DNA of 64,000 nt from Cladocopium goreaui (taxonomy: Eukaryota > Sar > Dinophyceae > Suessiales > Symbiodiniaceae): positions 377,936 to 441,935 of the forward strand of contig CAMXCT020001668.1 of assembly GCA_947184155.2 (NCBI GenBank), in the 5' to 3' direction. Position 1 is the stretch's first letter. Each line of letters begins with the position of its first letter. Position numbers and translations under genes: made by a program. The notes beneath the pieces are model-generated. The model saw only the letters and a program-made list of their open reading frames with translations, searched no databases and was not told the DNA's origin. This document shows positions 22,305 through 63,208 of this stretch, piece after piece.

Positions 22305-22433
22305 CCGCGCGCCTCCAGGGTCAAAGGAGGTCCCCCATCCTCTGCCACCAACAGAGTGGCCACACCCGAATGGACGTAGATCCTAAGGGGGACGTGACTC
22401 GAGGCTCCGAGGCCATCAATGTTTCCAAATGAG
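22305..22433 (-). CDS. Exon 44: cadherin-like repeat strands
   Basis: Acceptor CTCCATCAG. Frame SSHVPLRIYVHSGVATLLVA then EDGGPPLTLEARG. 'V.L.i.vhsG..tL......pl.l.g' is again the cadherin-like/tandem-95 strand pair seen in exon 1. Cadherin-like material therefore lies on both sides of the Ig/F5-8C block. Confidence 0.6.
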
Positions 22434-25400: not shown

Positions 25401-28400
25401 TGCGGTCTACCTATTGTGGCTCGGTCGTAAAAAACACCTGTGGTTTCATCAAACAAACCCAGTGAGAAAACTCAGCCAGATTCCCTCCGCAAAATCATGC
25501 TTAAATAGCAAGAATATATGACTACAACTTGATTCGTATGTATTATATTGTATTAATTTATTTGCTTGTGTGTGTGTGTGACAGTGTGTGTGTGTGTTGT
25601 GCTACGCATAAACTGTATACATAACAATCATTTATCATATTATATCCTATCATATCCATGTCCCCTTCCAATCTCTCTCTCTCTCTGCATCATCATTTAT
25701 CAATTCTATATGCACGTGTATCATCTTATATCCCATATTGATGTTAAAAGCATCAATATCACCTTGCCTTATCCACCAGGGGATCGAATCCACCGAGTCC
25801 ACCGAGGCACCAGTTCGACCTCCAGTTCCGTGCCGTTCTCGGCCGTGACCCGCAGCCAGTGGAAGTCCTGCAGCCAGCGCTGCTGCCGTTGCACCGCCAG
25901 GAAGCCCTCGCCGCTCTGTGGCGTTAAGCCACAGACGCTGAGCAGCGTGGTGCTGTCGTTGGAGTCGTTCCTGGTGGGACCAAGGCTGGGCAGTTGCATG
26001 TCGATTGAGGTGTTCTGCAATGGTTGGAGGTGGAAGCCTTGTTTGCATTTGCAAAAACTGCAACGGTGGAAAGCAAGGTTTGGGACGGTCAACATTCGGA
26101 AAATTGATGGCGGCCCGTTAAAGGACGTTGGCCGACGTTGGCCGACGTCGCATCCAAGGAATTAGTGATATCAATCCTCTGCAAGTCGGAATGCTACCCA
26201 ACTGAAACTCAGATAGATCCAACAGTTGAATGTTGAATCCCAACAAATTGGGAAGATTGATTCGCAATTCTGGCTGTGGAATTGCTGGATGAAAATCCAT
26301 GATATCCCTAACAACTGATTAGTGGCAAACCGCATCATGTGTCTGCTGTGGAACAAGCCGAGAAGGCCGCTGCGGCCAAGACTCCCGCAACTGGCATTGC
26401 TGCTGTTGTCACTGCTGTTTGAAGCATTGGAATCGGAGTGGCAGGTGGTGATATAACCTCGCCCATCCAAGCTGCATTATTCAACCTTACGCTTCTGAAT
26501 CTATCAAAGCATTTATTTGAGTGCCCAAAAATCTTTTACCTACCTAGGTATCTGAAAAACATACTGTACCATGATTTCAGTCACTGCGCCACTGTGTGCC
26601 TTTTCATTGGCACTGTACCATCTTGGTAGTATGAATCGTACAGGTATTTACGTGATTTTGGGGTATCTATATGCGCAACTTTTACGGGTGATGATGATGG
26701 CTTTACAGAACCACATGGTAGTATAGTTGCTGATTGCAAACGCCAAAGTAACATGAAAACGGACTCTGACTCAAAGAATGCCATCCGTAATTTACCATAG
26801 CGAGAGACAATTCCCAACTTATAATTTGCAGGTTGTCGCCAATCCGAACTTCATCCAAGTACCATCCTACAAGACAGAAGCCCACCCCACCAACTAACTG
26901 GTCAATATATCCGTTACATTGTCATTATTATATCCGGATAGAAATATCCCAGTGCTCTCCCATTGTATCTCCAATGGTAGTTGTGCCCACGATATCCATT
27001 GATTTTTCGCGGCGATTGGGCTTGGTAACAGTTGGTAACCCCACTTGATACCCCGAAACATGAATCTTCTCTGAACATCACTTACCCTCTGGTAAACTAA
27101 CATAACTATGGAAAATCACCATGTTTAATGGGAAAATCCACTACAAATTGCCATTTTCAATAGCTATGTTAGTTTACCAGAGGGTAAATGACCGTAAGTT
27201 TTAGCCAATCAACAAGCTCTGTTATGGAAAAAAAGGCTCAAAATCCCCATTAGACCCCATTCTACCCCTTCATATCCATCAAAACCGCCCATTTTGGCTT
27301 GGTGATTCAATGTGAATCACTGATAAAAAGGTAGTGTGGTAGACCCAATAAAGAACCATGCCCAAAATAAATAATCATATATATATATATACACATATGT
27401 TTGGCGGACAAAATTAATTACTACCCGCAGTGGACATGGCCTGGCCAAAGTGGGTGGTCCCCTATCGGTTGTGAATGTGTTCGCACAAATTTGAACATCC
27501 CATGTCCACTCCCCACTACTTTAGTCTTCTGCTAATTTTGTCGCATACTCATACATATATACATATAATGTATAATATATATATATATGTATGTATGTGT
27601 GTGTATATGTATATACGTAAAATTATGTATATGTATATTGATGTAATTATATAGTATATCTATAAACCATCCCCAGTCATGGTAGGTTTATGCCAGGGTC
27701 GTAGCGACCTTCACCAAGCAACAGAGATCCGCCTTGTAGGGAATCCTCGGCTCCTCCTGGGGCCTCTCCATCTCCTCCGTCGCTTCCGCCCAGACGGGCA
27801 CCGTGGATTTGACGTAGGGGTTCCGCTCCAAGACCGGCTCGGTGATGTGGAAGATCACCTAGTGATCCAAGGGCCGAATGCTGCAAAATGGCCAAAGAAC
27901 ATACCCCAAACATGGAGTTTTCTAGAGGAAATACATGGGAAATTCAATGGAAATGATGATGAACCATGATTAAAACTTTGATGGAAAATGGCTATAGTAA
28001 TTAATCCCGACTATTGCCCACTGGATAGCTGTGCATTCCACTATCCCATTCCATCCCTATGTATCCATCGCCTGTCCGTCACAGGTTGACTCAGCGCCCC
28101 CAAGCCCGCTGCACCTCCCCCAGTGGCAGCCCGGCAAAGTTTCGCGGAATTTGCACCGGAGCCCCGGTGATGTCGAAGATGGTGGTGGTGGACAAGTCCA
28201 CCAAGCCTCAGGTAGCGGCTAGTCGTTTGGGTTTCTTGGGATTCGTTTTTGAAACAAACCATGTGCAAATTTACCCATTTTTGAAACAAACCATGTGCAA
28301 AATTTGAAACAAACCATGTGAAAATTCTTGGTGTCTGATTTTCTGGTTTTTTCCTTGCACATTTAAAATCTGAATGATGAAAATGATGATCAACCATCAA

Positions 28401-30870
28401 ATTTAGAAGGTATGCGGTATGTACCCCATTTTTAGACAACGCCATGTTTCTTTTTCCGAGAAATTATTCAATTGATTTCAATTCTAAGAGCTGCACATCT
28501 ATAAATTCTTCCAATTTCACCCAGCTTCATATTGGAGGATTGATATAGATGGGACATCCCCCAGCAGCAACAGACCAACAGACCCCATCACCGAAAAAAA
28601 AATTGGTCAGGGATGCTTTTCTGTACAGACTGTATGATTATCCTCTGGTAAACTAACATAACTATTGAAAATTGCCATTTATAGCTGATTTACCCATTAA
28701 AATTTGTGATTTTCAATAGCTATGTTAAATTACAGTACCAGAGTCTACAGTGATCTATGATGATCTGATGATTTATGATGATCTCTCCATCTTACTGATC
28801 CCAACTGAGAGCCCTAATACTATTAGACAGGCTGATGGAGCTGTAAATCACCCAGCCGTGCGTCGTTTAAGTCAGGAATTCCACACCCAAATCATCCATA
28901 TATAAGGTTTCTAATGAATATTTCAGGCTATTTTCTCCGCATTCATGATGCAATCATACCCAAATTCATAAGTGGTCCGGACACAGAAAATAATATATAT
29001 ACCCTCTGGTTATTTAACATAGCCATGGAAAATGGCCCATTTATAGATGGTTTATCTATTAAAAATGGTGATTTTCCATGGCTATGTTTAATAACCAGGT
29101 GGTATATATATAATCCAATCTACATAGCCCTGATGCCCAATAGGAGAATATCATCCCCTTGTGACTCACAGAGGCGCTCTGTGACACACTCACCACACCA
29201 GGCGGCTGTTCTCAGGAATTTCGAGTGAGTAGGACTCTCCGATATTCAAGCCTCGGCGCTTCGGCAGCAATTTCACAGCTGCGGGGGGGTACAGACCAGC
29301 ATCGAAATAAATTCAGAAACACTTTAACATGTTTCCAAAGTTCATACTTGGATGTGCAGTTCCACTTGTAATGTTGTTATAAGTTATAAAGTTATAACCA
29401 TAGCTTTTAGTTATAGGGGTTATATACCAACTTATGGTGGGTTTTGCATCCATGGTCGTACCTGTTTGCAACCTCTGGCCTGTACCCCTGATCCCCTGGC
29501 TGTATGACAAATCCACCCATGTTTGAAACCTGCTGGTCTCCCTGAGGCCCCATATCTCCTTTTGACATTTCTTTTATGACCATCTCCATCTGTCACGGGC
29601 GCCTGGCAAAGCATCTGCTTCGGTCCGCCCAGACATGCCGAGACGCTTCGGTTCAGGCTCACCGTGATGATGGAGTCACTGATGCTGAAAGTATGCGGCA
29701 TAAAGACCTGACTTTTCGGATGCGATGCTGGAAAAATTTGACGTAGCGAACTGGAAGCCATGGCCCATGAATAAAGATCTGTTACATATCGATTTGCCGA
29801 TAAAAAATCATGAGTTTCCATGAGTTTCCACCAAAAAACGAAGTGAATTTACCAGAGGCGCAAACTAGGGGTGGTGGTTTCATCATCACCAAGCGGGGAT
29901 GATCGCGAGTGGAAAAAACAAGGAGTTGAAACTCGCTAGCGCCATATCCTGACAATTCCATTTTACGGCTGCCATGGGGAGGTCGTTGTTGGAACATGTT
30001 GAACCCCCAGGGAATTCTGTCAGAATGGTGGTTTAACCTGTGACCAGGGGGGAGTTGATTCCTGAAGTTTCACCTGGTGCAAATATCGAAAAACACTCCA
30101 AGACTTCACAGGGAACCCAAACATTTACATAGATAGATAGATAGATAGATAGATAGACAAACAGACAGACAGACAGATAGATAGATAGACAGATAGATAG
30201 ACAGATAGATAGATTAGAAACAGAAAAGAAAAGAAAAGAAACTAGAATCGAGATTAGATCAGACTAGATTAAGATTAGAATACGATTAGATTGGGTTAGG
30301 TTAGATTAAGATTAGATTAGGTTATTAGGTTAGATATTACCATTAGATATTCAAATAAGATATTTAGATTAGATCATATTATATATTTAAGAAAGATAAG
30401 ATAGATAAAATGGATTAGATAGATTAGATAGATTATATAGATAGATTGGTAGATTAGGTAGATTAGGTAGATAAATTAGATAGATTAGATAGATCCATTA
30501 AATAGATAGATTAGCTTAGATTAGATTAGATCAGATTAGATAGATAGATAGATAAATACTTTGATAGATAGGATAGGATAGGATAGGATAGATAGATGAA
30601 GTAGATGGCATGTTTTCTAACGATTCCAAGATGTCATACATGGCCATTGTTGATGATTGTAATGATTGTATCACTTGTACCGCTCTAATTGTGGCAAAGC
30701 CCATACCAAAAACCTGCAATTGGGGATGGCTATCGTCCCCAGCAAGTCGAAACATAATCATTTGTATCTGCATCTATAGCTATGATATCTGGTATGGAAC
30801 CCCAATGCACCAATACATCCCACCAGGTTCCTTTTGGACATATATATATATATACATACACATATACATG

Positions 30871-30904
<34 letters not shown>

Positions 30905-54900: not shown

Positions 54901-57501
54901 CGGCTTGGACTTTAGAATACTTTAGAATACTTCTTATGCTTAGCTGGTTAGTAACCCAAGCCTCCAGCAATCAGCTCCATGGCAGTTTGAGAAATGGTGG
55001 GTTTTCCAACCAACCATGCAGCTGATGACGTTACGGTCTAGCCGGGAAAAAAAACAAGCTACTTGGTGGCTCATCCCACGAATCGCAAGTGGCTTAGTTC
55101 ATCCTATCAGTGGATTCACCAACCTTCTCCCACTGAAATAGCTGGGGTGAACTAATCCACCTACAAATTCCAGGGAGCAAATGGTTCAAGTCGCCTGCGG
55201 CCGTCCAGAGTTCCGGCAAGCTTTCGCTGACTGCCAGCAGATCTTTCCTCGGTATGATTGTGATTCCATAAATGGGTGGGGTATGCCCCCAAAATGGGCA
55301 TATTTAATGGGGAAAATGGTGATAAACCATTGGATTTTGACTAATTACCCTATTTGTCGACAAACCCAAATGCTGTGCCAACAATACCCATTGGAAATCC
55401 ATTAAAAGATAAATCGTGATAAATAATGACAAAATGCGAATAAAGCAAAATTATAGCAAAACTGAACTGGCAATCACAATTGATACCCTCTGGCAGTTTT
55501 TTTCTCACATAGCTGACATAGCTATGGAAAATAGGCAAACCATCAATTTTCATTGGTCATGATCCATAGCTAGGAATTATTTGTAACAAATTACCAGATG
55601 GTACCCAAACAGTGTAACAATATGTAGCAATGTAGCCATCAGCCTGATCCACTCAGAATCATCAGCCTGGCAGAACCTGGCCCAGTTATGCCGCAAGAGG
55701 CTGTTTGTAATTACCGACACTATCCAGGGAGCCACATCACAAATCTTCAAAATTTCACCAACTCGACCAAGTCTCAGTTGCAAGTCTGTCCCCTGTGCCA
55801 CCTGAATGCTTGAGCCCACCATGCTGTGAATCAGCAGAGTGCTGGCGTTGGGCATTTCGATCTCCGTTTCGTTGGAGACGTTCACCGTGCTGTTGGTCTC
55901 ATTCGTCAGGGCCTGAAACCAGCCGATGCGATGGGCTGTGGTGGCTTTTATCTCACTCAAAGATGTAGGCGTTCACGTACCATACCCTCTGGTAAACTAA
56001 TGTAGCTAGTGCAAGTTACAATTTTCAATAGGTAGATCATCTAGAAATTGGTCATTTTCCACAGCCATGTTAGTTTATTGAAGAGTACAATGCCATAAAA
56101 GGGATTGAATAGGTATAAACGGTACCGTAAATGATTACGACAGATACCCAAAAATCTCCCGCCAGAGCAAACATGTGGATTCAGTCAAAGGAATTGCAAC
56201 GTGAAATACTTGGGTTTGTCTGCAAACGGCGCCCCCCAAAAACCACTGGTTAATCATAATTTTCCCTAGTAAACTGGCCAATTTGGGGTATCCCCGTGTT
56301 GGATACGCCCTCAAAAAATCATATTTTTACCTGCATCAAGTGCCCAATAAATCTCCAGTACTCCCATTATATCCCATGTAAACCATAAAAAACAAACCTT
56401 GCATAGCCCATGCTGAAACTGGCCATGACCCTGATCGCTGGATGTGGGCCGGAGGGGCCTCGAAAATGACGTTGCGCGGATCATCTTCGAAGCTTTCTGG
56501 AAACGACAAATTTGTGGTGTTCCTCGGGTCCAGCGCTGGTGATCGCCGCATGCCCCATATAAAATCAACTATCAGATCAAGGCTTTTGAATAGATTCCCC
56601 AAATTCAAAGTTCTTGTCCAAAACAACAAAAACCAAAACATATATAATCAACATATAACCATATAACGAAACCTTTTCCGCCTAAACATGACAAAAACCA
56701 CATCCTTGGATCGTTCCTTTCCTCCAGGCGTCGTCCCGTTGGATCCAAAGGTGGACTGCTTGTAGAACTGCGGCAGCCGGTCGTCGAAGTCCGGCAGCTC
56801 CGACACCTCCGGCAGATCCTCCGGCAGCGGCGACGTCGGCAGCGGCGGCAAGGCGCTGCAGTTGGCGCAGGGGGCGTCCTCCAACGTGTCCTGAGGGGGG
56901 CCTGGAGGGCGAGGGACCGAGGGATGACAGTTCTAAAAAATGATGAGGGTCTCTATCTATCTATCTAATCTAATCTAATCTAATCTAATCTAATCTAATC
57001 TATCTATCTTTCTATTTTTCTATCTATCTATCTATCTAGCTAGCTAGCTATCTATATATATATATATATTATATATATATGTGTGTGTGTATCTCAGTGT
57101 GTATCTGTTTCTGTTTATCTTTCTATGTTTCTTTATATCTATCTATTTGTCTATCTATCTATCTATCTAGCTATCTAGCTATCTAGCTATCTAGCTATCT
57201 AGCTATCTATCTATCCTATCTAATCGAATCTAATCTAATCTATATATCCAGTCGAATTTGAACGAGAAATGAGAATGATTATATTATATATATATATATA
57301 TGCTTGGAATAATTTGTATGGCATATGGCATGTAATAGTAGAATCAAGGGATGATATTTCTATGCTATGACCATGATGTACGACCGAGCCACAGCCACCA
57401 AGACCGAACCACAGCCATCAAGACTCAGAAAACCATGGAGCCACAGCCACCGTTTGGAACCGCTCGTTTATGCTAATTACATCTAATTACCCCTAGTGCT
57501 A

Positions 57502-57550
<49 letters not shown>

Positions 57551-60500
57551 CTATATGTATGAATAAACTGCTAGTTCTCCCTGCATGGGCCTCTGAAAAG
57601 GGATGACAATTGGGCATACCACCCTAATTGCGGATTCAGTGGTGCCCTACTTTCAGACAAGCCTATATGGATACAAAAAGGCGTTGTCCAATCGCCATTT
57701 CCCCAGAGAAAAAACATGTCTTTGAATCTGGTCGGTGTCTCAACCTGTCACCTCAGGTAGTGACTTAGTCTCACATTACTTGATGGATTAAGGGGGTTCA
57801 CCCAAATAGTAGTGGATTGTCAACCTGAAATCACCTGGTTGATGAACCAAGGGCCTCCCAAACAGTGATGGTTTGCTTCGAAAATCATATAATCCTCCAA
57901 CTAAACCCAGGGCCAACAGGACGTTCCAAGTGAGTGAAACGAGAAACGTGGTCGCCAAGCGCCAAGAATCGTGGTCCGAGGCGTTGGACTCGTTGGATTC
58001 GTTGTCGGCATCGGGGACGAGTGTCACATCGTAGGGATACAACCTGGCGGACGAACTGGGCTTCAAGCAGGAGAACAATGTGCAACTCAGGTCACTGAAT
58101 AGTCATGAATAGTCAAATTCCATGGAATTTTGGGCATTTCCAAATTTCCAGGCAGTCTTGGACATCGCAAGCTCAACCACCATGAACAGCAACAAAGCTG
58201 CTCTGGAATTCGGATGGTTTAGGAACTGGGTCAGGTTCAAAACCTGCCCCTTGACTTTCGGTCATCTCGACTCTTTTCGTCTTAAGTTTGTTTCCTTTTT
58301 GGGAGGAGGCAGGTGTGCATAAAATCCGTTTGGGTGACCAATGCCTGAAGGAAGCAACTCAAGTGGCTCGACCCGCCATCCCCCATCATCTTTATTCACA
58401 GAATCCTGAATCCTGCCCAAAAGAAAACAGAACACCCCATGGATGGTGTGAAAATTCGATCAAATCCAAGTTTTCTGTCAAGGCAACTCGATATATCTTT
58501 CGCAGGTGGTGCCATTTTCTTCCGAGTCATTCTGCTCGTTGAAGCTCTGAAATCGGCACGACAACTCCGCAGGCTCTGGAAAGCGGTCTGGCTCCTGGAA
58601 TCGGAAGATTCAAGGACCAGTCTCAGGTAACAACTGCTTCAGAGATCTTACCAATCTGCAGTAAATATTCATTTATACATATATATATATATATATGTAT
58701 GTATATATATGGCAGTGTGTCAAAACCTTGTACCCCTGGTGAACATCAAAATAGCTGGTAAATGGATGTTCATCCCCCTGAAAATGGTATTAATAGGTAT
58801 TGATCCATACCCATATATCTATATATATATATATGTGTGTGTGTATATGTGGACAACCCACCATGTATCATCATAGGAACCCTATAAATATCTATAGATA
58901 TGGAGAGCCATGGGGAAAAAAAAACATTTATAGATCATTTCCTGAGGAGACCATGGGCTTTCTTTCCATAGGCTGTGTCCATGTTAGCTCACAGGGTGCA
59001 ACAATCGTTCCACCAGCTGTGCATTTTTTCCAAATTTGACAGTTATAAGTTGTAAGTTATAACTTATATTATAAGGGATATTATTTGGACATGTTGTCAT
59101 TTTGATGTCGGGATACGTATGATAGGGAGTGTTTGAATACAAAGCATCTACAACATTCTACAACTAATCTGAATTGTCGGCCATTCTTGAGATATTTCAA
59201 TTGACTAACCAGTGAGGTTGCTGCAGTCGGCCCGGAGACAAGCATGCAAATACCATGTAATGATGATAAGCAATGGTAAATCATTACCATGAGGACTTTA
59301 AAAATATTAGATACCATGTAATAAAAGCATTACCCAGTAAATCATGTTATCCTATTTTAAAAATACCATAAATGATCATGAAGATAGGTGGATTCTTTAA
59401 AATAGGATAAAATGGGACAGGACTAAACCTCAACAGAAGGCAAATGGATAGCTCCGCCGTCGTTGCCCAGCAGATTTTGAAAAGAGATGCCTATTACTGA
59501 GTCTTCCAAGTTGGCCAGGTCAGAAAGTCCATCCCAAATGAAAAAAATGGAGACAAATAATAGATCCAAAGTATCTATATGGTTTTATTAGTATCCCAAA
59601 TGGTGGATGTTCTATTAGTATCTATTACATGCTATTACTATCTGATTTTGCTACCTTGACTAATCTTATTTCCGACATAGGGCAACCACAAAAAAAAATC
59701 GGCCACAATTTCCAACGTCGGCAACCCAACCTGAAGAGGCCCATCCAAAATCCCAATCCATTGATGGATTGTTTAAAGAGAAAACTGTTTGAAGCAGTGC
59801 TGCAGCATTAAAACAAGGGGCTCCTGCAATTTTTCTTCAACCAATGGTGGGAATTCCCATGGAATGACAATCTAAAGGAAACCATGGCTGGAATAAACAT
59901 CATATATAGAAGTTTCCTGAAAATGGGAGGTTTCTTATGCCTCAATATCATAGTCGGTGTCCTGCAAATATTCCCATGATTTGCTTAAGATGCTCCAAAA
60001 GGAATAGGATATATTCATATATTCCCTATAGATTTCCTATAGATATTTAATACCCCTATAGATATATTCCCTATAGATTTCCCTGTTATCCCAAATGAAT
60101 ATTCCCTATATTTCTCTATAGATTCCCTCTTTTAGAGGTGGAAAGAACCGGGAAAATCCCATGGAAATCCCATCTCCTGTGGGACAATCTCCGGCGCAGC
60201 CACGGGTTGGATGTCGATATCCCAGCAGCCCGTGTAGCGTCGCATCTGCGCCTCGCCCGGGCGTTGGGCGTTGGGCACGTCCTGCAAGAAGAGGCACAGG
60301 TGGTCCAGGCCGTGTAGGTGACCTGAAGGCCATCCCGAGATCAATGGAATATATATATATATATGTATGTATCATGTATATATATGTATCATGTATATAT
60401 ATGTATCATGTATATATGTGTATGTGTGTGTGCGTGTGTGTATACTGTATATGTACATGTATGTGTATATCATGAAATTTTATGTGTTTATGATATGATA

Positions 60501-63208
60501 TAATATATATATATGATATAGATGAGTGTATCTGTATGATGACACAATGGGCATTGAAGCAACAAACATGATGGTTTGATGGAATTTAAGTTGGGATCTT
60601 AGGGAACATGGCATGTTTTGTGGCTTGCTACCAGGCCGCTTTCCGCTCAAGATGGGTGAACTTCGGTTCTATGTTCGTTGAGGGGATGCTAAACAGTATA
60701 GATATGCAAAGATCGAATGAGGTCTCTTATGATATCTATAGATATGATTCATACTCATACAAGCTATTACTAAGATATATCAAGTTGTATCCCGATATCG
60801 TACAAGTATATCAACGTAAGATCTACATGTTCAGTAGTCATCAGAATGTCTTAGACTATTCATATCCCAAAACTCCAATTACAGAAAGTGGAACATCCTG
60901 GAATGAGTGTGAAGTATGTAACTGAATGAGTGCTCTATTATAGGATCTATAGGTTAGCGAAGTTGGTTATCATGCAAAATCACTAAATCGCTTAAGGAGT
61001 TATGGGGCGATTTTGGGATCGTTGGAAGGGTCCCTTCCCGCGCCGCGCCTTTCGTAACGAGGAGACACCGAGTCAGAAAGGCCATCTAAGGGAGATGTTT
61101 ACCATGGTGTTTACCCCTCACCAAAGCCCAAATCTGTAACTCATTACCCTCTGGTTATTTAACATAGTCATGGAAAATCACCATTAAAATAATAGGTAAA
61201 CCATCTATAAATTGGCCATCTTCCCATCTTCCATGGCTATGTTAGTCACAACCAGAGGGTAACTGTTAGGGTAAAAAGCTCTGCAGCTTTTTCAATGGTC
61301 CAGCGACTCATGTTCCGTGGAGGCGTGTAGACCAAGGTGTCCAACGTGGCTTCGACATCCTCTGCGTAGCCCTGGAAGGTGACCAAATTGCGCTCGCTCT
61401 GCGTGAGGATGGCGCTACTGGACATGACCATGCCTCGAAATGAGGGGAACATGGCGCCATGTCAACCATGAAAAAAACAACGCTTTTAAAAGGAGCCTTT
61501 TGAATCATCAGTTTTTTACCCCTCCCAAAAAATGACAGTCAAAAAAACATACTTAAGGGAGAACAAAAGGCTGGAAAAGCCGGTCTTTGCATGCTAATTC
61601 TGTGGTTTCGTGGGAAAATTCCAGTAGACCGATCTGAAGAATCTTCATGATGAACTAAACAGAGTTGCCTCCCATATTTAAAGGTAGTTAAGCTCCAAAA
61701 AATACCAACTGTCGAGACCCACAAGCATGTTGATGAGTTTCCAAAGCTAAAGGTCCTGCACATGTGAAAAGTGAAAAGGAAACATGTTGGTTCATAGCTT
61801 GTCCTCATTTTGACCACCCATGCGGTGCATTGATATGCTGGAAAATGCAAGCAGCAAGCATACCGATCCTAGAACCCAATAGATATACAAACAGGTACGC
61901 ACCCATAAACATGACGCAATCATCAGCAAAGCTAGACGAAAGGAACCGAAAATGTCGCTGAAATCCCTGAAGCAGCTGCTGATATTCCCATATTTGGCCA
62001 TCACGCGCATCGTGAAGGGCCATGCTGCATCAATCCTGGGCGGTGCACCACTCATCGAAGATCAGAATGGAACCCAAGAAATCATCATCATTTTCTCGGA
62101 AGAACGGGTTATCATATCATGTTCAAACACCTAAGAGTCTTTCCCAGGCTGTTTGTGTGAATCGATTTTTTGAAGAGGGTAACTCTTTACAGAAGGTGGA
62201 AGAGCATGCCAGGAAGATCCAGGAAGGAAACCAAGGCAATTGATCGACATGGTGACACATTGTGACACATTGTAACTGACTACAGCCCCCTTTCATCCAA
62301 CTTTCATAAATAAAATCAATGGTTCAGTCGTCACCGTTACCTTCATTCTTGATATAAACAGTATGAATATAAACATGACGAAATCTTTAAGCGCATAAGC
62401 TGGGCAATCCTATGCGCATTCTTAGTAGGGAGAAAAAAGAGTTTCAGCAAACAAAACAAGACGCGAACTTTTCCTGGTGACCCTCTGTGAAGCCATTGAT
62501 GACTGATGACCTATCCCAGTGACCATGTTTTTTGGGTCACAATAAACATCATCCCACACTGACCCTAAGTTGGAGTTGTTTTTGGCATGAGTTTCGCCCC
62601 ATGAACATAAGATTAAATCCCCTCAATCCACCGTGTTTCCCACTTAAGTGCCCATCTTCCATGGTTAACAAACCCGTTGCTTAGTGGTTTTGCCTCGGAT
62701 TATCTGGGATAAAATCCCAGTTTTCCATACATGCTTAAACCATGTTGAACCCTAATTTGTTCACCTTACCTCACAACCAAGCATCCTCCCCAGGTGTTGC
62801 TGATTTATAAGACAATTCAACTATTATATCTACCATAGAGCCAACGGGTATTGGAGTTATTTGCACTAACTTAGCTAACATGACCTGGTTCTAATTTCAT
62901 ATACATACATGATACATGTAATACTTATAATTATAAATGTGTTCTTGTTGAATATAAACCTGTATAAACCCATATAAATATCATAAATATCAATAAATTC
63001 GATGTTCTCTTGGTAAATTCACGTAAAATTCATCTCAAGATGCCCAGTTTTAGGGCAACGTTCTCCCGGCCCAGGCACTGTGGCGCGCTACGGAGGTCCA
63101 GATCCTGCACCCGAAAGCAGCAGAGCGCCTTGGGCGTGTCCTGTTGGACCAGGAGCGGCAGGGCCCAGGGATGGTCCACCGAGAAGATCACTGGGGTGTC
63201 GTCCTGAG
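22305..63208 (-). CDS. Giant multi-exon adhesin-like gene (span, 5' partial)
   Basis: Span of at least 44 candidate exons of 31-220 bp on the minus strand, listed separately below. Taken together they encode a large beta-sandwich protein: cadherin-like/tandem-95 repeat pieces first, then SbsA-type Ig-like (Big_5-like) domains around an F5/8 type C module, then further cadherin-like pieces. N-x-S/T sequons are frequent, which fits a secreted or surface glycoprotein. The reading frame is kept through two exon chains (44.7-41.1 and 38.8-32.3 kb). I see neither a signal peptide nor a membrane anchor with confidence: the 5' end lies beyond the right edge and the 3' end is uncertain. Exons may be missing between the listed ones, and more than one gene could be involved. 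No gene symbol can be assigned. Confidence 0.6.
22480..22715. repeat. TA-rich low-complexity tract
   Basis: Several TATATATATA runs and a short (GA)n, interrupted by unique sequence at 22563-22630. Confidence 0.7.
23329..23419 (-). CDS. Exon 43
   Basis: Acceptor GGCGAG and donor GCAG|GTACGC, giving 30 codons from phase 0. Frame AVLGLAACHEDENADEVQCR then VYVIENRNVA. Beta-rich with an acidic turn. Confidence 0.55.
23806..23909. mobile_element. Family 1 MITE (subtype C)
   Basis: TACCCTCTGGTGAACTAACA to TTAGTTCACCAGAGGGTA; ends 18 bp from exon 42. Confidence 0.85.
23928..24012 (-). CDS. Exon 42
   Basis: After GGTGATAG the frame reads LDEKFENDVLQVALLRPKNS then KPKAAEPE. Codon-like composition in AT-rich surroundings. 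A MITE ends 18 bp beyond the proposed GTGATG donor. No domain recognised; the Lys/Pro-rich end differs from its neighbours. Confidence 0.45.
24474..24550 (-). CDS. Exon 41 candidate
   Basis: Acceptor ACGCCAG and donor GGAG|GTGGGA. Frame EVVSVNSPALIKARSQTRPA then EIRRG. Open only in part of the region; no domain recognised. Confidence 0.4.
24622..24729. mobile_element. Family 2 MITE inside (TA)n
   Basis: ACTGGTTGGTGGTTGAGCAA to TTTGAAACCACCAACCAGT, flanked on both sides by TATATATATA. Insertion into a TA microsatellite. Confidence 0.8.
25813..26014 (-). CDS. Exon 40: sequon-bearing segment
   Basis: Acceptor ACCATTGCAG. Frame NTSIDMQLPSLGPTRNDSND then FHWLRVTAENGTELEVEL. Four sequons. All three minus frames stay open; this one has the secreted beta-strand character of the neighbours. 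The left edge is approximate. Confidence 0.55.
26325..26460 (-). CDS. Exon candidate, sequon cluster
   Basis: GC-richer island. One frame gives CHSDSNASNSSDNSSNASCG, very dense in sequons like exons 6 and 9. Another frame is Ala-rich and hydrophobic. Splice sites are not resolved. Confidence 0.3.
27083..27186. mobile_element. Family 1 MITE (subtype A)
   Basis: TACCCTCTGGTAAACTAACA to TTAGTTTACCAGAGGGTA. Confidence 0.85.
27709..27858 (-). CDS. Exon 39
   Basis: Acceptor TCACTAG and donor AAG|GTCGCT; exactly 50 codons, phase 0. Frame VIFHITEPVLERNPYVKSTV then PVWAEATEEMERPQEEPRIP. An in-frame stop follows 18 bases later, so it could also be a terminal exon. Confidence 0.6.
28115..28206 (-). 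CDS. Exon 38: Ig-like domain end
   Basis: Between ACCTGAG and donor GAG|GTGCAG. Frame LVDLSTTTIFDITGAPVQIP then RNFAGLPLG. Resembles the 'g.vDl..tt.f.i.g' end of SbsA-like domains. The phase does not join directly to exon 37, so an exon may be missing. Confidence 0.6.
28637..28745. mobile_element. Family 1 MITE, diverged
   Basis: TATCCTCTGGTAAACTAACA to TTAAATTACAGTACCAGAG. Confidence 0.7.
29000..29104. mobile_element. Family 1 MITE (subtype B)
   Basis: TACCCTCTGGTTATTTAACA to TTTAATAACCAGGTGGTA, inside a TA-rich stretch. Confidence 0.85.
29194..29278 (-). CDS. Exon 37
   Basis: Acceptor CCCCGCAG and canonical donor TGTG|GTGAGT. Frame VKLLPKRRGLNIGESYSLEI then PENSRLV. 'L..G.sYsl.Ip' fits the penultimate strand of a Big_5 domain. 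Confidence 0.65.
29603..29707 (-). CDS. Exon 36
   Basis: Acceptor AAAGTCAG, phase 0, matching exon 35. Frame VFMPHTFSISDSIITVSLNR then SVSACLGGPKQMLCQ. Ig-like strands with one sequon nearby. The left edge assumes a GC donor; a GTGAGC inside the frame is an alternative. Confidence 0.6.
30127..30600. repeat. GATA/GATT compound microsatellite
   Basis: Perfect ATAG/ACAG repeats at 30127-30215 decay into AGATTAGATT variants and end with (GGATA)n. Confidence 0.9.
30838..30930. repeat. (TA)n/(CA)n microsatellite
   Basis: TATATA runs around an ACACACACACAC block. Confidence 0.8.
31002..31095 (-). CDS. Exon 35: beta-sandwich strands
   Basis: Acceptor ACGCCGAG and donor GAT|GTCTCT, giving 31 codons. 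Frame NHELYLISVFANGTENPAGD then RLTITFTADPD. RLTITFT is a typical Ig-like strand. A family-1 MITE ends 15 bp upstream of the acceptor. Confidence 0.7.
31110..31224. mobile_element. Family 1 MITE, diverged
   Basis: TACCCTCTGGCAAACTGTCC to TTAAATTACCCGAGGGTA; lies 15 bp upstream of the exon 35 acceptor. Confidence 0.75.
31571..31685. mobile_element. Family 5 inverted-repeat element
   Basis: AGGGGTTGGTAAATGTCCC at the left pairs with GGGACATTTACCAACCCCT at the right. Confidence 0.75.
31910..32021. mobile_element. Family 1 MITE (subtype C)
   Basis: TACCCTCTGGTGAACTAACA to GTTAGTTCACCAGAGGGTA. Confidence 0.8.
32308..32397 (-). CDS. Exon 34: acidic loop
   Basis: Acceptor GAGACCAG and donor GACG|GTATAG; exactly 30 codons, phase 0. 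Frame ERSGGSLRCDADDSNGSDAR then DAGRRGAAET. It parallels the acidic loop in exon 29. A second frame is also open here. Confidence 0.55.
32715..32860. repeat. (TA)n/(TG)n tract
   Basis: Alternating TATATA and TGTGTG runs. Confidence 0.75.
32927..33039 (-). CDS. Exon 33: end of Ig domain 2, start of domain 3
   Basis: Acceptor ACCCCCAG. Frame DAFRFPVALTTAQDATAPVF then LATDPPTGSS. The F-x-F close of one Big_5 domain is followed at once by the D-a-t-a-P-v-f...P-x-x-G-S opening of the next. In phase with exon 32; proposed donor CAC|GTCTTT, though the frame stays open for 45 more bases. Confidence 0.8.
33100..33202. mobile_element. Family 1 MITE, right half intact
   Basis: Ends CTACGTTAAATTGCCAGAGGG; the left end is decayed. 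Confidence 0.5.
33706..33806 (-). CDS. Exon 32: SbsA-like Ig domain 2, C-terminal strands
   Basis: Acceptor TTATCGCAG and GC donor AGAG|GCTGGG. Frame YPYQNMQPGNYHCLQVEPGV then ITDLAGTPFPGLR. It reproduces the Big_5 ending 'l.pG.Y.v.v..GvitDlaGn.f.Gl.g' almost exactly. Confidence 0.85.
34312..34410. mobile_element. Family 1 MITE remnants
   Basis: Two TACCCTCTGGTAAT left ends 56 bp apart and one decayed right end (GCTAAGAGGGTA). Confidence 0.5.
34597..34633 (-). CDS. Exon 31: 37-bp microexon candidate
   Basis: Between GGGGCTAG and TTGG|GTTAGT the frame reads NRGALHYLAFL. It is the only piece found that turns exit phase 1 of exon 30 into the phase 2 needed by exon 32. That is the main support. 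Confidence 0.45.
34720..34826. mobile_element. Degenerate family 1 MITE
   Basis: ATCTGGCAATCTGACATAGT to TTAGTCTACTGGAGGGTAA. Confidence 0.55.
35132..35227 (-). CDS. Exon 30: SbsA-like Ig domain 2, strands
   Basis: Acceptor CAGGGAAG and donor ACTG|GTAGAT. Frame MEDAERSGQAEDPWIYVTGS then MILIRCPVQLT. Two bases complete the codon from exon 29 and the exit phase is 1. Confidence 0.7.
35713..35829. mobile_element. Diverged family 1 MITE
   Basis: TACCATCTGGTAAACTAACG to GAAATTATTGGAGGGTATA. Confidence 0.6.
36057..36193. mobile_element. Family 1 MITE (subtype D)
   Basis: TACCCTCCAGTAAATTAACA to TTAATTTACCAGAGGGTA with a distinct interior (ATAGACCCTGG / CAGGGTCTAT). Confidence 0.8.
36363..36504 (-). 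CDS. Exon 29: SbsA-like Ig domain 2, loop
   Basis: Acceptor CGACGTTAG, phase 0, and donor CTGG|GTAAAT. Frame SLVDAGDDTLCGTADDGAIL then QIPAELPSQYVRNGTE. Acidic, possibly metal-binding loop with one sequon. GC-rich against AT-rich flanks. Confidence 0.75.
37165..37262. mobile_element. Degenerate family 3 element
   Basis: CTGGTGCTCCCTACTTGGCTAA and ACATAACTGGGGGGCACG resemble the two family 3 copies at 44.0 and 51.0 kb. Confidence 0.45.
37574..37671 (-). CDS. Exon 28: SbsA-like Ig domain 2, core
   Basis: Acceptor TATCTCCAG and GC donor CAG|GCAACT. Frame SIPDAAATLAVSDTQRIALY then FSELIVVMSGSQ. I-x-L-x-F-S-E is the hallmark core strand of Big_5 domains. The 2 leading bases complete the Gly codon from exon 27. 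Confidence 0.8.
38053..38194 (-). CDS. Exon 27: SbsA-like Ig domain 2, start
   Basis: Acceptor TCCCCGCAG, phase 0, and donor CCTG|GTTCCG. The frame ends with EYDTIAPVILSALPRPG, the 'Dt.aPtv.s..PanG' opening of Big_5 domains. In phase with exons 26 and 28. Confidence 0.75.
38218..38322. mobile_element. Family 4 inverted-repeat element
   Basis: ACTGGTGCTTAGTAGGGAATG at the left pairs with CATTCCCTGCGAAGCACCAG at the right; the interior is rich in CATTCCCC. Confidence 0.7.
38734..38835 (-). CDS. Exon 26: end of F5/8C-like module
   Basis: Exactly 34 codons, phase 0, between GCCCCAAG and donor CAG|GTGTGC. Frame FCFGTPQDQINVQFYVDGLW then YTLQQRGPKRRLEQ. The motif QFYVDGLW recurs as QLFVDGQW in the exon at 214-292. 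Confidence 0.7.
39574..39684. mobile_element. Family 1 MITE (subtype D)
   Basis: TACCCTCCAGTAAATTAACA to TTAATTTACTGTACCAGAAGG; sister of the copy at 36057. Confidence 0.8.
39861..39891 (-). CDS. Exon 25: 31-bp microexon candidate
   Basis: Between GCTGGGAG and AAG|GTTAAT the frame reads SVQIVGSSGK. It leaves phase 0, matching exon 26. The V-x-I-x-G-S-S-G form fits a late strand of the F5/8C fold, but it is short. An exon is probably missing between 24 and 25 because the phases do not join. Confidence 0.4.
40251..40360. mobile_element. Family 2 MITE (subtype b)
   Basis: ACTAATTGGTGGTATACCTA to TTCCAAACCACCAACCAG, with GAGCTCGTCAGTTGGGATGA inside. Confidence 0.75.
41062..41234 (-). CDS. Exon 24: F5/8 type C-like module, core
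   Basis: Acceptor TTCTCCAG and donor ACG|GTGAAA. Frame NYEANLGFDGDTATCWWSST then NKPGSWIGLHV. 'a.DGd..T.WwS......WIg' is the diagnostic centre of F5/8 type C domains. It is the clearest single domain signature in the window. 57 codons after the phase-1 split codon. Confidence 0.8.
41698..41850. repeat. (TG)n/(TA)n microsatellite
   Basis: TATATA, a poly-A, then about 55 bp of TG/CG dinucleotides, then TATATA again. Confidence 0.85.
41914..41993 (-). CDS. Exon 23: F5/8 type C-like module
   Basis: Acceptor GGGTAG and canonical donor ACTG|GTGAGT. Frame PAGSSEANESTFGENSDLAA then ESGQPT. One base completes the codon from exon 22 and one base is passed on to exon 24. The SS-E-A-N start resembles the 'aSSe' strand of F5/8C domains. 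Confidence 0.65.
42227..42302 (-). CDS. Exon 22: F5/8 type C-like module
   Basis: Acceptor CTTTAACAG and donor CGG|GTAAAT. Frame ALTKDMNALTLVQCQAVDSF then GGLF. The frame would stop directly after the donor. Phase 1 in and phase 2 out, both matching the neighbours. Confidence 0.6.
42451..42534 (-). CDS. Exon 21: F5/8 type C-like module, start
   Basis: Acceptor TGCTAG and donor AAGC|GTGGGT. Frame ADGWHVCEVQFYLSTAARRR. W-x-v-x-E-v-q-F-Y is the usual opening of algal and animal F5/8 type C (discoidin) domains, which bind carbohydrate or lipid. In phase with exons 20 and 22. Confidence 0.7.
42954..43106 (-). CDS. Exon 20: SbsA-like Ig domain 1, C-terminal end, and link to F5/8C
   Basis: The frame contains EEGVIRDVSGTNFSGVAAED then FTVRTA. 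This is the Big_5 closing pattern 'g.v.D.aGn.f.gv...Ftv'. It continues GWRLVASNISAA into the discoidin-like module. The 2 bases at its start complete the codon left by exon 19. Donor GCAG|GTGCCT. The acceptor (AAAAAAG) is unusual. Confidence 0.75.
44028..44149. mobile_element. Family 3 inverted-repeat element
   Basis: AAGTGGTGCCCCATAGTTAG to ACTGGGGGGCACCACCTT. Confidence 0.8.
44283..44402. mobile_element. Family 1 MITE (subtype B)
   Basis: TACCCTCTGGTTATTTAACA to TTAAATAACCAGATGGTA, with a small internal insertion. Confidence 0.8.
44587..44707 (-). CDS. Exon 19: SbsA-like Ig domain 1, strand
   Basis: Acceptor AACTTCAG and donor GCTG|GTTAGG. Frame QNPVDFCHRAIGQTPASQVL then LAGLHLHQFFIPAAG. 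All three minus frames are open here. This one is chosen because it alone splices in phase (phase 1) into exon 20. Confidence 0.6.
44934..45540. mobile_element. Family 1 MITE split by about 500-bp insertion
   Basis: The left half (TACCCTCTGGTAATTTAACA ... GTTGATTTACC) ends near 44990. The right half (AATGGTGATTTTCCATAGCT ... TTACCAGAGGGTA) resumes near 45500. The intervening sequence carries a 3' poly-T/TTTTATT-rich stretch. Confidence 0.7.
46131..46205 (-). CDS. Exon 18: SbsA-like Ig domain 1, strand
   Basis: Acceptor TGGCCAG, phase 0. Frame VEISVQDTYSVSFNKNLAPR, resembling the middle strands and 'L.p' turn of Big_5 domains. A GTGAGC inside the frame could be an earlier donor, so the left edge is approximate. 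Confidence 0.55.
47323..47428. mobile_element. Family 2 MITE (subtype b)
   Basis: CTGGTTGGTGGTATACCTAC to CCAAACCACCAACCAG. Confidence 0.85.
47551..47654. mobile_element. Family 1 MITE (subtype A)
   Basis: TACCCTCTGGTAAATTAACA to TTAGTTTACCAGAGGGTA; ends 15 bp from exon 17. Confidence 0.85.
47670..47756 (-). CDS. Exon 17: SbsA-like Ig domain 1, loop
   Basis: Acceptor CCACCTGAG and donor AAAAG|GTTGGG; exactly 29 codons, phase 0 at both ends. Frame DCGADDVCGQAATFDDTAVA then LPKGRMGQK. Two inverted-repeat elements stand 13 and 15 bp from its two splice sites. Confidence 0.65.
47769..47874. mobile_element. Family 5 inverted-repeat element
   Basis: AGGGGTTGGTAACTGTCCC at the left; GGGGACATTTAATGACCC at the right is diverged. 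Lies 13 bp from exon 17. Confidence 0.65.
48838..48935. repeat. (GAC)n/(GAG)n trinucleotide tract
   Basis: GATGAC passes into long GAC repeats and then into GAG repeats. It would encode poly-Asp/Glu if read, but no exon frame connects to it. Confidence 0.85.
49328..49395 (-). CDS. Exon 16: SbsA-like Ig domain 1, core strand
   Basis: Acceptor AAAGCCAG. The frame VLLTFNDWVQAGEGNFQIID matches the Big_5 core 'i.LtFse.V..G.GnitI.da' almost position by position. It joins in phase to exon 15 through a GC-AG intron of 225 bp. The donor (GCG|GTGTGT, or a GC site just before it) is uncertain. Confidence 0.75.
49621..49710 (-). CDS. Exon 15: SbsA-like Ig domain 1, N-terminal half
   Basis: Acceptor GCGCACAG and GC donor CAG|GCGAAG; exactly 30 codons, phase 0. 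The frame ends PSLMSTVPRNGSVDVSTSNF-Q. This is the 'tPtv.stsPanGatgVs.s' opening of SbsA-type Ig-like (Big_5) domains, the family first seen in bacterial S-layer and adhesion proteins. Confidence 0.75.
50050..50125. repeat. (TA)n tract
   Basis: TATATA runs next to the donor of exon 14. Confidence 0.75.
50127..50225 (-). CDS. Exon 14
   Basis: Acceptor ATTGTCCAG and donor GGA|GTACAT. It is exactly 33 codons, phase 0 at both ends. Frame KQITRRRIDFRAWPVPSTHW then PEDAVCAINFRLG. The strand-like ending directly precedes the first SbsA-like Ig domain. Confidence 0.55.
50290..50420. repeat. (CA)n/(TA)n tract
   Basis: ACACACACAC, CATACATACA and TATATA blocks. Confidence 0.75.
50534..50646 (-). CDS. 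Exon 13 candidate
   Basis: Acceptor CTTGCCCAG and donor GGAT|GTAACC. Two frames are open. The more protein-like one gives TASATVLQQCVESLAVHVPW then DTPVTRPLKAWTIIVAG, a plausible beta-rich segment. Confidence 0.5.
50971..51092. mobile_element. Family 3 inverted-repeat element
   Basis: AAGGTGGTGCCCCATAGTTA to CACTGGGGGGGCACCACCTT. Nearly the same interior as the 44.0 kb copy. Confidence 0.85.
51185..51272. repeat. ATGGTGATTA decamer repeat
   Basis: Tandem ATGGTGATTA then ATGATGGTTA units, directly beside a family 2 MITE. Confidence 0.8.
51275..51384. mobile_element. Family 2 MITE (subtype b)
   Basis: ACTGGTTGGTGGTATACCTA to TTCCAAACCACCAACCAGT. Confidence 0.85.
51881..52004. mobile_element. 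Family 2 MITE (subtype c)
   Basis: ACTTGGTGGTTTTTCGCCTA to GGTTCCAAACCACCAACCAG. Confidence 0.8.
52069..52140 (-). CDS. Exon 12
   Basis: Acceptor GAGCCCAG. Frame SVAKLSRSDPLQSEDPRELK then LRLG. It would end at a GA donor (CTTG|GATGAG), since the next in-frame codon after Gly is a stop. The ELKLRLG strand resembles the exon at 8422-8478 (EELELRF). Confidence 0.5.
52215..52318. mobile_element. Family 1 MITE (subtype A)
   Basis: TACCCTCTGGTAAACTAACA to TTAAATTACCAGAGGGTA; lies 74 bp upstream of the exon 12 acceptor. Confidence 0.85.
53003..53111. mobile_element. Family 2 MITE (subtype a)
   Basis: CTGGTTGGTGGTTTCAACTA to TTCCAAGCCACCAACCAG. Confidence 0.85.
53189..53278. mobile_element. Degenerate family 1 MITE
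   Basis: CACTCTGGCAATCTAAATAG to TCTGTAACAAATTGCCCGCG. Confidence 0.4.
53480..53563 (-). CDS. Exon 11 candidate: cadherin-like strand
   Basis: Acceptor ACCGCCAG. Two frames are open. One gives YFQLHLTLAHGLSFSSP, like the v.L.v.hG.l.f strand of cadherin-like repeats. The other gives AAFDVGARLEFQLTTSGAVQ. GC-rich island; the donor is not resolved. Confidence 0.45.
53784..53884. mobile_element. Family 2 MITE (subtype a)
   Basis: CTGGTTGGTGGTTTCAACCA to GTTTGAAACCACCAACCAG. Confidence 0.85.
55195..55247 (-). CDS. Exon 10 candidate
   Basis: Between a CCGAG acceptor and a GCAG|GCGACT GC donor, the frame reads KDLLAVSESLPELWTAA. A plus-strand frame over the same bases is equally open, so strand is chosen only to agree with the neighbours. 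Confidence 0.3.
55484..55603. mobile_element. Diverged family 1 MITE
   Basis: TACCCTCTGGCAGTTTTTTT to GTAACAAATTACCAGATGGTA. Confidence 0.7.
55802..55912 (-). CDS. Exon 9: sequon-rich segment
   Basis: Acceptor GGTTTCAG and donor CAG|GTGGCA. It is exactly 37 codons, phase 0 at both ends. The frame reads ALTNETNSTVNVSNETEIEM then PNASTLLIHSMVGSSIQ, with five sequons in 25 residues. This fits an extracellular glycosylated stretch. Confidence 0.7.
55983..56089. mobile_element. Diverged family 1 MITE
   Basis: TACCCTCTGGTAAACTAATG to GTTAGTTTATTGAAGAGTA. Confidence 0.7.
56398..56535 (-). CDS. Exon 8: beta-sandwich segment
   Basis: Acceptor GATCACCAG and donor CAAG|GTTTGT. The frame reads LDPRNTTNLSFPESFEDDP and then RNVIFEAPPAHIQ. 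Two sequons (NTT, NLS) are present, and NVIFEAPPAHIQ has the form of the v.F.ap.a.vq.aL strand of cadherin-like repeats. Confidence 0.65.
56728..56890 (-). CDS. Exon 7: Pro/Asp/Glu-rich segment
   Basis: Acceptor CCCCTCAG. The frame begins DTLEDAPCANCSALPPLP and continues PEDLPEVSELPDFDDRLPQF, ending near the sequon NGT. It is strongly GC-rich against AT-rich flanks. The 3' edge is approximate. Confidence 0.6.
56950..57245. repeat. CTAT/CTAAT compound microsatellite
   Basis: ATCT/TAATC units, (TA)n, then CTATCTAG units. It is the complement-type counterpart of the 30.1 kb tract. Confidence 0.9.
57505..57550. repeat. (GAT)n microsatellite
   Basis: About 15 perfect GAT triplets. Confidence 0.9.
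57930..58085 (-). CDS. Exon 6: cadherin-like strand plus sequon cluster
   Basis: The frame contains LYPYDVTLVPDADNESNESN followed by ASDHDSW. Three overlapping N-x-S sequons (NES, NES, NAS) stand after a V-x-L-x-P-D-x-D strand. The acceptor is ACCTGAG. The donor is not resolved, and the frame stays open through a hydrophobic stretch (LATTFLVSLTW). Confidence 0.6.
58496..58594 (-). CDS. Exon 5: acidic glycosylated segment
   Basis: Acceptor GATTCCAG. Frame EPDRFPEPAELSCRFQ then SFNEQNDSEENGTTCER, with two sequons (NDS, NGT). The frame stops soon after, at 58480, so a donor near 58496 is needed. The choice between GA and a later site is unresolved. Confidence 0.6.
59429..59502 (-). CDS. Exon 4: cadherin-like repeat start
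   Basis: The frame reads LEDSVIGISFQNLLGNDGG and then AIHLPSVEV, with donor GAG|GTTTAG. The EDs.i.is...LL.ND pattern is the signature start of tandem-95/cadherin-like repeats. The acceptor (CTTGGAAG) is weak, so the right edge is approximate. Confidence 0.55.
60186..60322 (-). CDS. Exon 3: cadherin-like repeat, last part
   Basis: Acceptor GGCCTTCAG. The frame reads GHLHGLDHLCLFLQDVPN and, later, CWDIDIQPVAAPEI. The closing V-x-P-V-x-x-A-P-E-I matches the 'pVNDaPvi' linker that ends one cadherin-like repeat and opens the next. The proposed donor is ATT|GTCCCA. Together with exons 1 and 2 it makes one complete repeat. Confidence 0.7.
60348..60530. repeat. (TA)n/(TG)n and TATCATG repeats
   Basis: Three ATATATGTATCATGT units within TATATA/TGTGTG. 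Confidence 0.8.
61145..61261. mobile_element. Family 1 MITE (subtype B)
   Basis: TACCCTCTGGTTATTTAACA to TTAGTCACAACCAGAGGGTA; its terminal repeat overlaps the 3' edge of exon 2. Confidence 0.85.
61253..61433 (-). CDS. Exon 2: cadherin-like repeat, middle part
   Basis: The frame contains LTQSERNLVTFQGYAEDVEA followed by LDTLVYTPP. This is very close to the G.l.din..L.tLtYtP core of tandem-95/VCBS-type cadherin-like repeats. It ends with ELFTLTVTL, the usual last strand. The frame runs into the terminal repeat of the MITE at 61145-61261, whose CTCTG|GTTGTG could be the splice donor. The right boundary follows a TTTCGAG acceptor and is approximate. Confidence 0.75.
63044..63208 (-). CDS. Exon 1: cadherin-like repeat, first part
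   Basis: Acceptor TTTTCAG at the right edge. The open frame starts QDDTPVIFSVDHP, continues with FRVQDLDLRSAP and ends ENVALKLG. This follows the tandem-95/cadherin-like pattern aPvI...I.V.D.D...V.L...G. A GC donor (CTGG|GCATCT) closes the exon just before an in-frame stop. It is the most upstream exon seen, so the gene continues beyond the right edge. Confidence 0.7.

Follow-up and report, generated by a model that had tools for sequence, protein, structure and literature searches.

A many-exon gene on the minus strand

The window analyzed here is the whole stretch of 64,000 nucleotides from Cladocopium goreaui (positions 377,936–441,935 of contig C1668, which is 1.56 Mb long); coordinates above 64,000 are extended ones, covering the adjoining 20 kb on the upstream side of the minus-strand gene. 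A large many-exon gene lies on the minus strand of this dinoflagellate genome, and its exons within the window are listed in Table 1. The genome searched was the assembly of 1.166 Gb in 6202 contigs. That it is a dinoflagellate genome follows from 172 exact copies (81 + 91) of a 21-base query, which we take to be the dinoflagellate spliced leader, compared with none for the same query written backwards. Searches with Rfam and for tRNA genes gave no match within the window.

Table 1. Exons and predicted exons of the minus-strand gene in the window (order of transcription)
Feature	Position	Strand	Predicted peptide	Remarks
Tandem-95-like repeat exon	63035..63203	-	DDTPVIFSVDH...RVQDLDL	Acceptor ctcag|G, donor GA; hand-joined
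Tandem-95-like repeat exon	61308..61433	-	FQGYAEDVEATLDTLVYTPPRNM	Hand-joined; sole genome match at E ≤ 0.1 is its own exon
End of tandem-95-like repeat	60177..60322	-	GLDHLCLFLQD...WDIDIQPVAAPEI	Hand-joined
In-frame joined exon	58485..58594	-	EPDRFPEPAELSCRFQSF...	
In-frame joined exon	57907..58043	-	LYPYDVTLVPDADNESNESN...	3' border uncertain
Predicted exon, unjoined	56699..56901	-		Log-odds 23.4; borders vary by run (56682-56901 in another)
Predicted exon, unjoined	55733..55912	-		Log-odds 15.5; rich in N-glycosylation sequons
Big_5-like copy A, exon 1	49336..49412	-	IPESQVLLTFNDWVQAGEGNFQIID	Hand-joined; copy A without Pfam recognition
Big_5-like copy A, exon 2	47670..47756	-	DCGADDVCGQAATFDD...	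Hand-joined
Big_5-like copy A, exon 3	46155..46205	-	VEISVQDTYSVSFNKNL	Hand-joined
End of copy A and start of F5/8C-like segment	42954..43086	-	EGVIRDVSGTNFSG... (copy A end); GWRLVASNIS (F5/8C-like start)	Hand-joined
F5/8C-like segment exon, 47 bp	42488..42534	-	ADGWHVCEVQFYLST	Hand-joined
F5/8C-like segment exon	41914..42022	-	DCTTDLIQGSPAG...	Hand-joined
F5/8C-like core exon	41120..41234	-	NYEANLGFDGDTATCWWSSTNKPGSWIGLHV	Hand-joined; Pfam-scanned
F5/8C-like exon	39831..39891	-	SVQIVGSSGKVNPVAWLAKL	Hand-joined
F5/8C-like exon	38747..38814	-	DQINVQFYVDGLWYTLQQRG	Hand-joined
Exon leading into Big_5-like copy C	38053..38165	-	DTIAPVILSALPRP	Hand-joined
Big_5-like copy C exon	37595..37671	-	AATLAVSDTQRIALYFSELI	Hand-joined
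Big_5-like copy C exon	36389..36504	-	LVDAGDDTLCGTADDGAILQIP	Acceptor AG|A in place of AG|G; hand-joined
Big_5-like copy C exon	35152..35232	-	EEMEDAERSG...YVTGSMILI	Hand-joined
Big_5-like copy C, last exon	33706..33806	-	NYHCLQVEPGVITDLAGTPFPGLR	Hand-joined
Big_5-like copy D, start	32889..33039	-	DAFRFPVALTTAQDATAPVFLATDPPTGSSIEG	Hand-joined; copy D without Pfam recognition
Big_5-like copy D exon	32308..32397	-	SEAVVPCDATLM...	Frame picked by eye, finder picked another; hand-joined
Big_5-like copy D, last exon	31002..31095	-	NHELYLISVFANGTENPAGDRLTITFTADPD	Hand-joined
Ig-like segment E exon	29587..29707	-	VFMPHTFSISDSIITVSLNRSV...	Hand-joined; no Pfam match within the 672-residue block
Ig-like segment E exon	29204..29278	-	VKLLPKRRGLNIGESYSLEIPENS	Acceptor AG|C; hand-joined
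Segment E exon	28106..28206	-	LVDLSTTTIFDITGAPVQIPRNFAGL...	Hand-joined
Last hand-joined exon	27709..27858	-	VIFHITEPVLERNPYVKS...	
Predicted exon, unjoined	22305..22382	-	IYVHSGVATLLVAEDGGPPLTLEAR	At the lower limit given in the earlier note

Exons were joined by hand into three stop-free blocks comprising 34 exons, 26 of which lie within the window and account for 2,706 coding bases. The first 32 formed blocks of 6, 5, and 21 exons, which encode 247, 200, and 672 residues free of stops, and two added exons lengthened the second block from 200 to 282 residues. Joined exons had a median length of 105 bp (range 47–169 bp) and the 29 introns between them a median of 889 bp, the shortest being 189 bp. 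Among the 32 exons, the donors were GT in 13 cases, GC in 12, and GA in 7, and the acceptor was AG|G in 30; with the genomic spliced leader, all the marks sought of a dinoflagellate nuclear gene were found. Donors, always beginning with G and never GG, were selected by hand for a fit to reading frame and domain, and in-frame joining is therefore weaker evidence than it appears.

A decayed copy of such a gene, i.e. a pseudogene, is very unlikely. Some stretches resisted joining, as might be expected of one, but 34 exons run without a stop, though with frames and borders chosen by hand, and the assembly yielded no further copy of the exons tested: seven exon pieces returned only self-matches at E ≤ 0.1, a search whose reach ends short of divergent paralogues. 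The F5/8C-like domain, searched at E ≤ 10, matched five exons of its own and one further weak match with stops (E = 6).

The earlier note had called the gene a giant micro-exon gene. For C. goreaui, the available part of PMC9412976 gives averages of 120.4 bp per exon and 838.8 bp per intron, with GT, GC, and GA donors at 36.6%, 43.6%, and 19.8% and AGG at 96.1%; the part of PMC5177918 at hand gives 21.8 exons per gene of 109.5 bp each for S. microadriaticum, and the accessible portion of a review puts GC/GA-AG at 25–74% in Symbiodiniaceae (PMC11453091). These averages are close to our values; exons of ∼100 bp and GC/GA donors are the published norm in Symbiodiniaceae and no peculiarity of the present gene. 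To judge from the same excerpts (PMC5177918, PMC9412976), it is like ordinary multi-exon Symbiodiniaceae genes in exon and intron length, GT/GC/GA donors, and AGG acceptors; compared with the mean gene, as far as the averages in these excerpts allow, it has about three to four times the exon number and gene length, if it is one gene.

The window also holds ∼105-bp inverted-repeat elements starting with TACCCTCTGGT, at 23806–23909, 27083–27186, 31910–32021, 47551–47654, and 52215–52318 among other places. Their end motif has 17 matches in the window versus 0.04 expected, and 10 paired elements occur in 84 kb; a longer form of the end has 18,837 matches genome-wide versus 0 in the control. As introners do, the elements carry in their ends a donor-like G|GTAAAC together with an acceptor-like CCAG|AGG. 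None of the 10 elements is a joined intron, because the shortest joined intron (189 bp) exceeds all of them.

As for the extent of the gene, exons are predicted throughout the interval first proposed for it (22,305–63,208), but that interval is incomplete: the series runs on upstream of the window to ∼77.5 kb extended (∼455.4 kb of contig C1668). The upstream exon at 77,471–77,350 (minus strand, extended; MWQWLLPLEALLFFGGSALDC), ∼13.5 kb upstream of the window, is signal-peptide-like as judged by eye and begins one base after an AG, as expected of a trans-splice acceptor. A start at 77,471 is a candidate only, because the same frame is open further upstream and a second frame, picked by the self-trained finder, is open too. 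Exons are likewise predicted from 27.7 kb down to 22,305 and between 57.9 and 49.4 kb, two stretches in which in-frame joining was not achieved. The automatic minus chains came to 2,508 and 2,798 residues, false exons included.

Coding signal of the two strands and of controls

The minus strand is coding. Codon usage was trained on kinase and ion-channel matches from the same assembly: from 60 such matches, we removed 19 on contigs judged bacterial and 5 with stops, which left 36 (7,988 codons). The exon finder was home-made and used G-T/C/A donors, AG acceptors, and amino-acid frequencies set to general proteome averages; exons with a log-odds of ≥12 were counted as strong, and the region scored was 22.0–77.6 kb (window plus 13.6 kb of upstream flank). 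With simple initial splice weights, the minus strand was favored, with a log-sum of 525.8 compared with 343.3 for the plus strand. Weights from the first hand joins gave 73 minus and 56 plus exons in the same region (20 and 11 strong), and weights adjusted to all hand joins gave 75 minus exons (19 strong) and 55 plus exons (10 strong). With these weights, twenty shuffles in 150-base blocks yielded a mean of 37.0 exons (maximum 44), 1.4 of them strong (maximum 3), the reversed sequence yielded 52 exons (8 strong), and the strong exons in positions 1–15 kb of the window were one on the plus strand and none on the minus strand. The finder exons overlapped 31 of the first 32 hand-joined ones, with frame and borders not always equal and with splice weights tuned to these joins. 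Splice motifs learned from the kinase and ion-channel loci were overfitted, and self-trained ones gave empty exons and were discarded.

Plain candidate counts, such as the at least 44 short minus-strand exons reported before, include false ones, because the shuffles yield half as many exons, mostly weak. The order of that figure was right, in that an earlier finder run placed 50 exons between 63,203 and 22,305; several of these were clearly spurious (for example, a poly-valine microsatellite frame at 48,941–48,843), and hand joining reached 26. The exon counts of the plus strand and the reversed sequence, together with the short length and modest scores of most single pieces, speak for chance open frames in noncoding DNA. 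This explanation is nonetheless already disfavored and highly improbable: the strong minus exons far outnumber those of the shuffles, 46 of the 55 plus-strand exons lie antisense over minus exons as their shadows, and a tandem-95 match (E = 5.8e-9) was obtained on the automatic minus chain only.

Tandem-95, Big_5-like, and F5/8C-like parts

By sequence homology, the cadherin-like part is firmly assignable to tandem-95-type repeats, with the matches coming from exons upstream of the window. The block 69,495–66,185 matched the NCBIfam family tand_rpt_95 (NF012211) at E = 1.7e-10 with 40.7 bits; the NCBIfam cut-off of 90 bits applies to whole proteins and was missed, and the name here covers the repeats, not the whole protein. 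In Pfam, the same block passed the cut-off of Big_9 (PF17963; 25.1 versus 23.6 bits) and fell below that of Cadherin_5 (PF17892; E = 0.0036, 17.5 versus 26.5 bits). Besides the tand_rpt_95 match given above, the automatic minus chain matched Big_9 at E = 0.00057 (21.2 bits, below the cut-off) in a Pfam scan of two pieces totaling 2,547 of its 2,798 residues, and the plus chain (1,929 residues) gave nothing at E ≤ 0.1 in NCBIfam and nothing at E ≤ 1 in Pfam. By eye, the tandem-95 pattern is recognizable at 75.6, 73.5, 67.4, 65.0, and 61.4 kb. Further, the intron 64,093|63,203 at the window edge splits a repeat boundary V-x-AV-ND-x-P, and the first exon of Table 1, joined to 64093–64182 just outside the window, completes it as VEAV|DDTPVI. 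The window-edge block 65,022–60,177 had no Pfam match, its NCBIfam matches being VCBS (E = 0.14) and a chance match to ATP synthase, and when loosely joined pieces were first scanned, Big_9 (E = 0.013) was the sole Pfam match. When the genome was searched with tand_rpt_95, all 23 matches at E ≤ 10 fell on contig C1 and none on C1668; single exons are therefore below detection in such a search.

Contig C1 (7.38 Mb) and also C2380 have a bacterial look, with long unbroken frames, and carry many of the 129 kinase matches listed, all 23 tandem-95 matches, and 3 of 18 F5/8C matches. They probably derive from a bacterium in the culture whose DNA was retained in the assembly.

The SbsA/Big_5 and F5/8C labels are plausible, not proven, and their scores lie below threshold. 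Exons 43,086 to 38,814, joined with a provisional and longer 3' border of the last exon, had Pfam F5_F8_type_C as best match (17.2 bits, E = 0.0058), up from 14.0 bits (E = 0.058) as more exons were joined, and F5_F8_type_C_2 as second best (E = 0.25). The gathering score of F5/8 type C (PF00754) is 28.2 bits, and we speak only of an F5/8C-like domain. F5/8C was the only family to appear in the whole 672-residue block (E = 0.065, 13.8 bits); the part after exon 41,234, scanned on its own, had no Pfam match. Copy C (38,165–33,706 and the start of the next exon) had Big_5 as its sole Pfam match over positions 1–95 of 105 (16.0 bits, E = 0.021), compared with a gathering score of 23.6 bits for this SbsA Ig-like family (PF13205). 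Copies A, D, and E, with identities to copy C of 34, 22, and 29% in a gappy alignment, look related to it by eye; Pfam did not find Big_5 in copy A, copy D, the whole 672-residue block, or single short pieces. These scans comprised 25 query sequences and 24,736 models. In the earlier note, motifs of all three families had been called diagnostic and HMM searches of joined exons proposed as a check; in these searches the tandem-95 part passed a Pfam cut-off, just outside the window, and F5/8C and SbsA stayed below theirs, each being the top match of its own joined domain.

One alternative accepts the gene and its tandem-95-type repeats as real but takes the SbsA and F5/8C labels to be wrong, these parts being other or unrecognized beta-rich domains; we consider it unlikely. 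Such a reading would agree with the subthreshold scores and with the automatic minus chain, in 2,547 of whose 2,798 residues neither F5/8C nor Big_5 was recovered. Profile comparisons within the assembly were weak as well, with a probability of 6% (E = 0.006) for the F5/8C-like domain against five F5/8C segments and of 21% (E = 0.001) for the Ig-like copies against three Big_5 segments. We favor the two labels, however, because both families had been named before any search and each then came first among all the models for its own joined domain, Big_5 at nearly full length.

Two of the three minus frames of 50–64 kb, with X at stops, gave no Pfam family at E ≤ 1. PF00754 had 18 genome matches at E ≤ 0.001 and PF13205 had 4 at E ≤ 1, none of them on C1668. 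Searches of solved structures gave no convincing relative (best E values 1.5, 0.49, and 0.40), and in PHROGs one phage tail protein matched over the F5/8C-like core (E = 0.11). Matches to SOR_N, POR_N, DUF538, 7TM_transglut, decaprenyl diphosphate synthase, and ATP synthase gamma (E 0.027–0.21) were read as chance. Elsewhere in the assembly, contig C4069 (37.8 kb) has at 16900–17400 a Big_5 domain above the cut-off (40.5 bits) within an open frame of 437 residues, which could represent a further algal Big_5 gene or a bacterial one; two window pieces compared with this Big_5 by BLASTP gave nothing meaningful. Copies A (47670–47756) and C (36389–36504) share an acidic, cysteine-containing insert (DCGADDVCGQAATFDD / DAGDDTLCGTADDG), which is possibly calcium-binding.

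Gene architecture, relatives, and possible role

The arrangement that we consider probable is one large spliced Symbiodiniaceae gene with an N-terminal tandem-95 array, a sequon-bearing middle, and Big_5-like Ig domains flanking one F5/8C-like domain. It would start at the signal-peptide-like exon and run on the minus strand to at least ∼27.7 kb, and the predicted protein would have ∼2.5–2.8 thousand residues, to judge from the two automatic chains with some false exons. Its N-terminal half would consist of tandem-95/cadherin-like beta-sandwich repeats, followed by a middle part with putative N-glycosylation sites (nine sequons were counted in 1,119 joined residues) and then by the Big_5 (SbsA)-like Ig domains around the single F5/8 type C (discoidin)-like domain. 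The claim of a large one-strand protist gene with extracellular, bacterial-type beta-sandwich domains is supported by the minus-strand coding excess and the tandem-95 homology.

That all exons belong to one gene is likely. Because dinoflagellate genes often run in one direction, as the unidirectional gene arrangement reported for Symbiodinium in the part of the literature at hand also indicates, a shared strand is insufficient to establish it. Two or more same-strand neighbors, e.g. a tandem-95 gene at ∼77–58 kb and a separate Big_5/F5/8C gene at ∼57–22 kb, are an alternative that is unlikely, if worth keeping in view; it would explain why no in-frame chain crosses 57.9–49.4 kb and would spare a single gene with three to four times the usual number of exons. 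Against it, predicted exons fill that gap, the largest spacing in 63.2–27.7 kb is 3.1 kb (46,155 to 43,086) and lies inside a joined block, and both halves of the exon series look extracellular.

Compared with bacterial tandem-95/cadherin-like adhesins (NF012211, Big_9, Cadherin_5), the single gene that we favor has the common repeat L..L.YTPP.NF.G....V.D.G...V.AVND.P, whereas it is nuclear, divided by introns, and diverged, and the exons tested showed no second copy. With bacterial Big_5 surface proteins, copy C shares the start motif D..AP......P..G and the end motif V.PGV..D.AGT.F.G; it differs in scoring below the gathering cut-off, and copies A and C add a D-x-G-x-DD-x-CG-x-A-like motif, seen by eye. 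Among eukaryotes, alveolates are known to secrete adhesive mosaic proteins. The available part of PMC11285972 describes apicomplexan LAP/CCp proteins with F5/8C domains among their modules and reports, from Symbiodiniaceae and Amoebophryaceae, LAP-like proteins with combinations of ricin, F5/8C, SRCR, and LCCL. Since F5/8C modular proteins are, according to that excerpt, already reported from Symbiodiniaceae, the suggestion that the architecture is unusual for a eukaryote is not supported. The present gene would likewise encode a secreted alveolate mosaic with an F5/8C-like module, but with tandem-95 and Big_5-like repeats instead of LCCL, ricin, SRCR, and LamG; a scan at E ≤ 1 that covered 2,547 of the 2,798 residues in the automatic minus chain found none of these four, LCCL being the one used to decide membership. 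In a narrow search of the open-access literature, the tandem-95 combination was not found for Symbiodiniaceae.

Cadherin-like and Ig-like beta-sandwich domains, when arrayed, form long rods outside the cell that calcium often stiffens, and the ligands of F5/8C domains are glycans or lipids. From its domain content, the product is most likely a secreted or surface protein of adhesin-like type. The repeats may form a stalk, i.e. a long extracellular rod, perhaps calcium-stiffened, and the F5/8C-like domain would be a binding head for a glycan or lipid, either on a partner cell or on the wall or mucilage of the cell itself. We regard as doubtful the more specific proposal of a single-copy adhesin that joins tandem-95, SbsA-type Ig, and one discoidin-like lectin domain, i.e. 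bacterial modules spread over 70+ exons, and that serves to recognize a coral host, bacteria, or a mate as partner. By what means surface molecules let dinoflagellate symbionts and their hosts recognize one another is an open question, and a large protein at the cell surface, with a glycan-binding-like domain and without a detected second copy, would be a concrete candidate for recognition studies. At present the result mainly annotates a large extracellular gene from algae in which such exon structure is common.

On the upstream side of the gene, more exons are predicted on the minus strand at 79.3–83.6 kb extended (e.g. GEVIAFNRDSGRYLVQLLPPRRP), and they look like a separate non-secreted gene. 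At the other end, a GC-rich (∼60%) tandem array with a 238-base unit occupies 16509–20178 of the window and is open in several frames. Adjoining it, 20244–20895 is open on both strands, for 190 residues on plus and 212 on minus; a minus-strand frame in this stretch has two CPxC motifs and perhaps encodes a repeat-derived zinc-binding protein.
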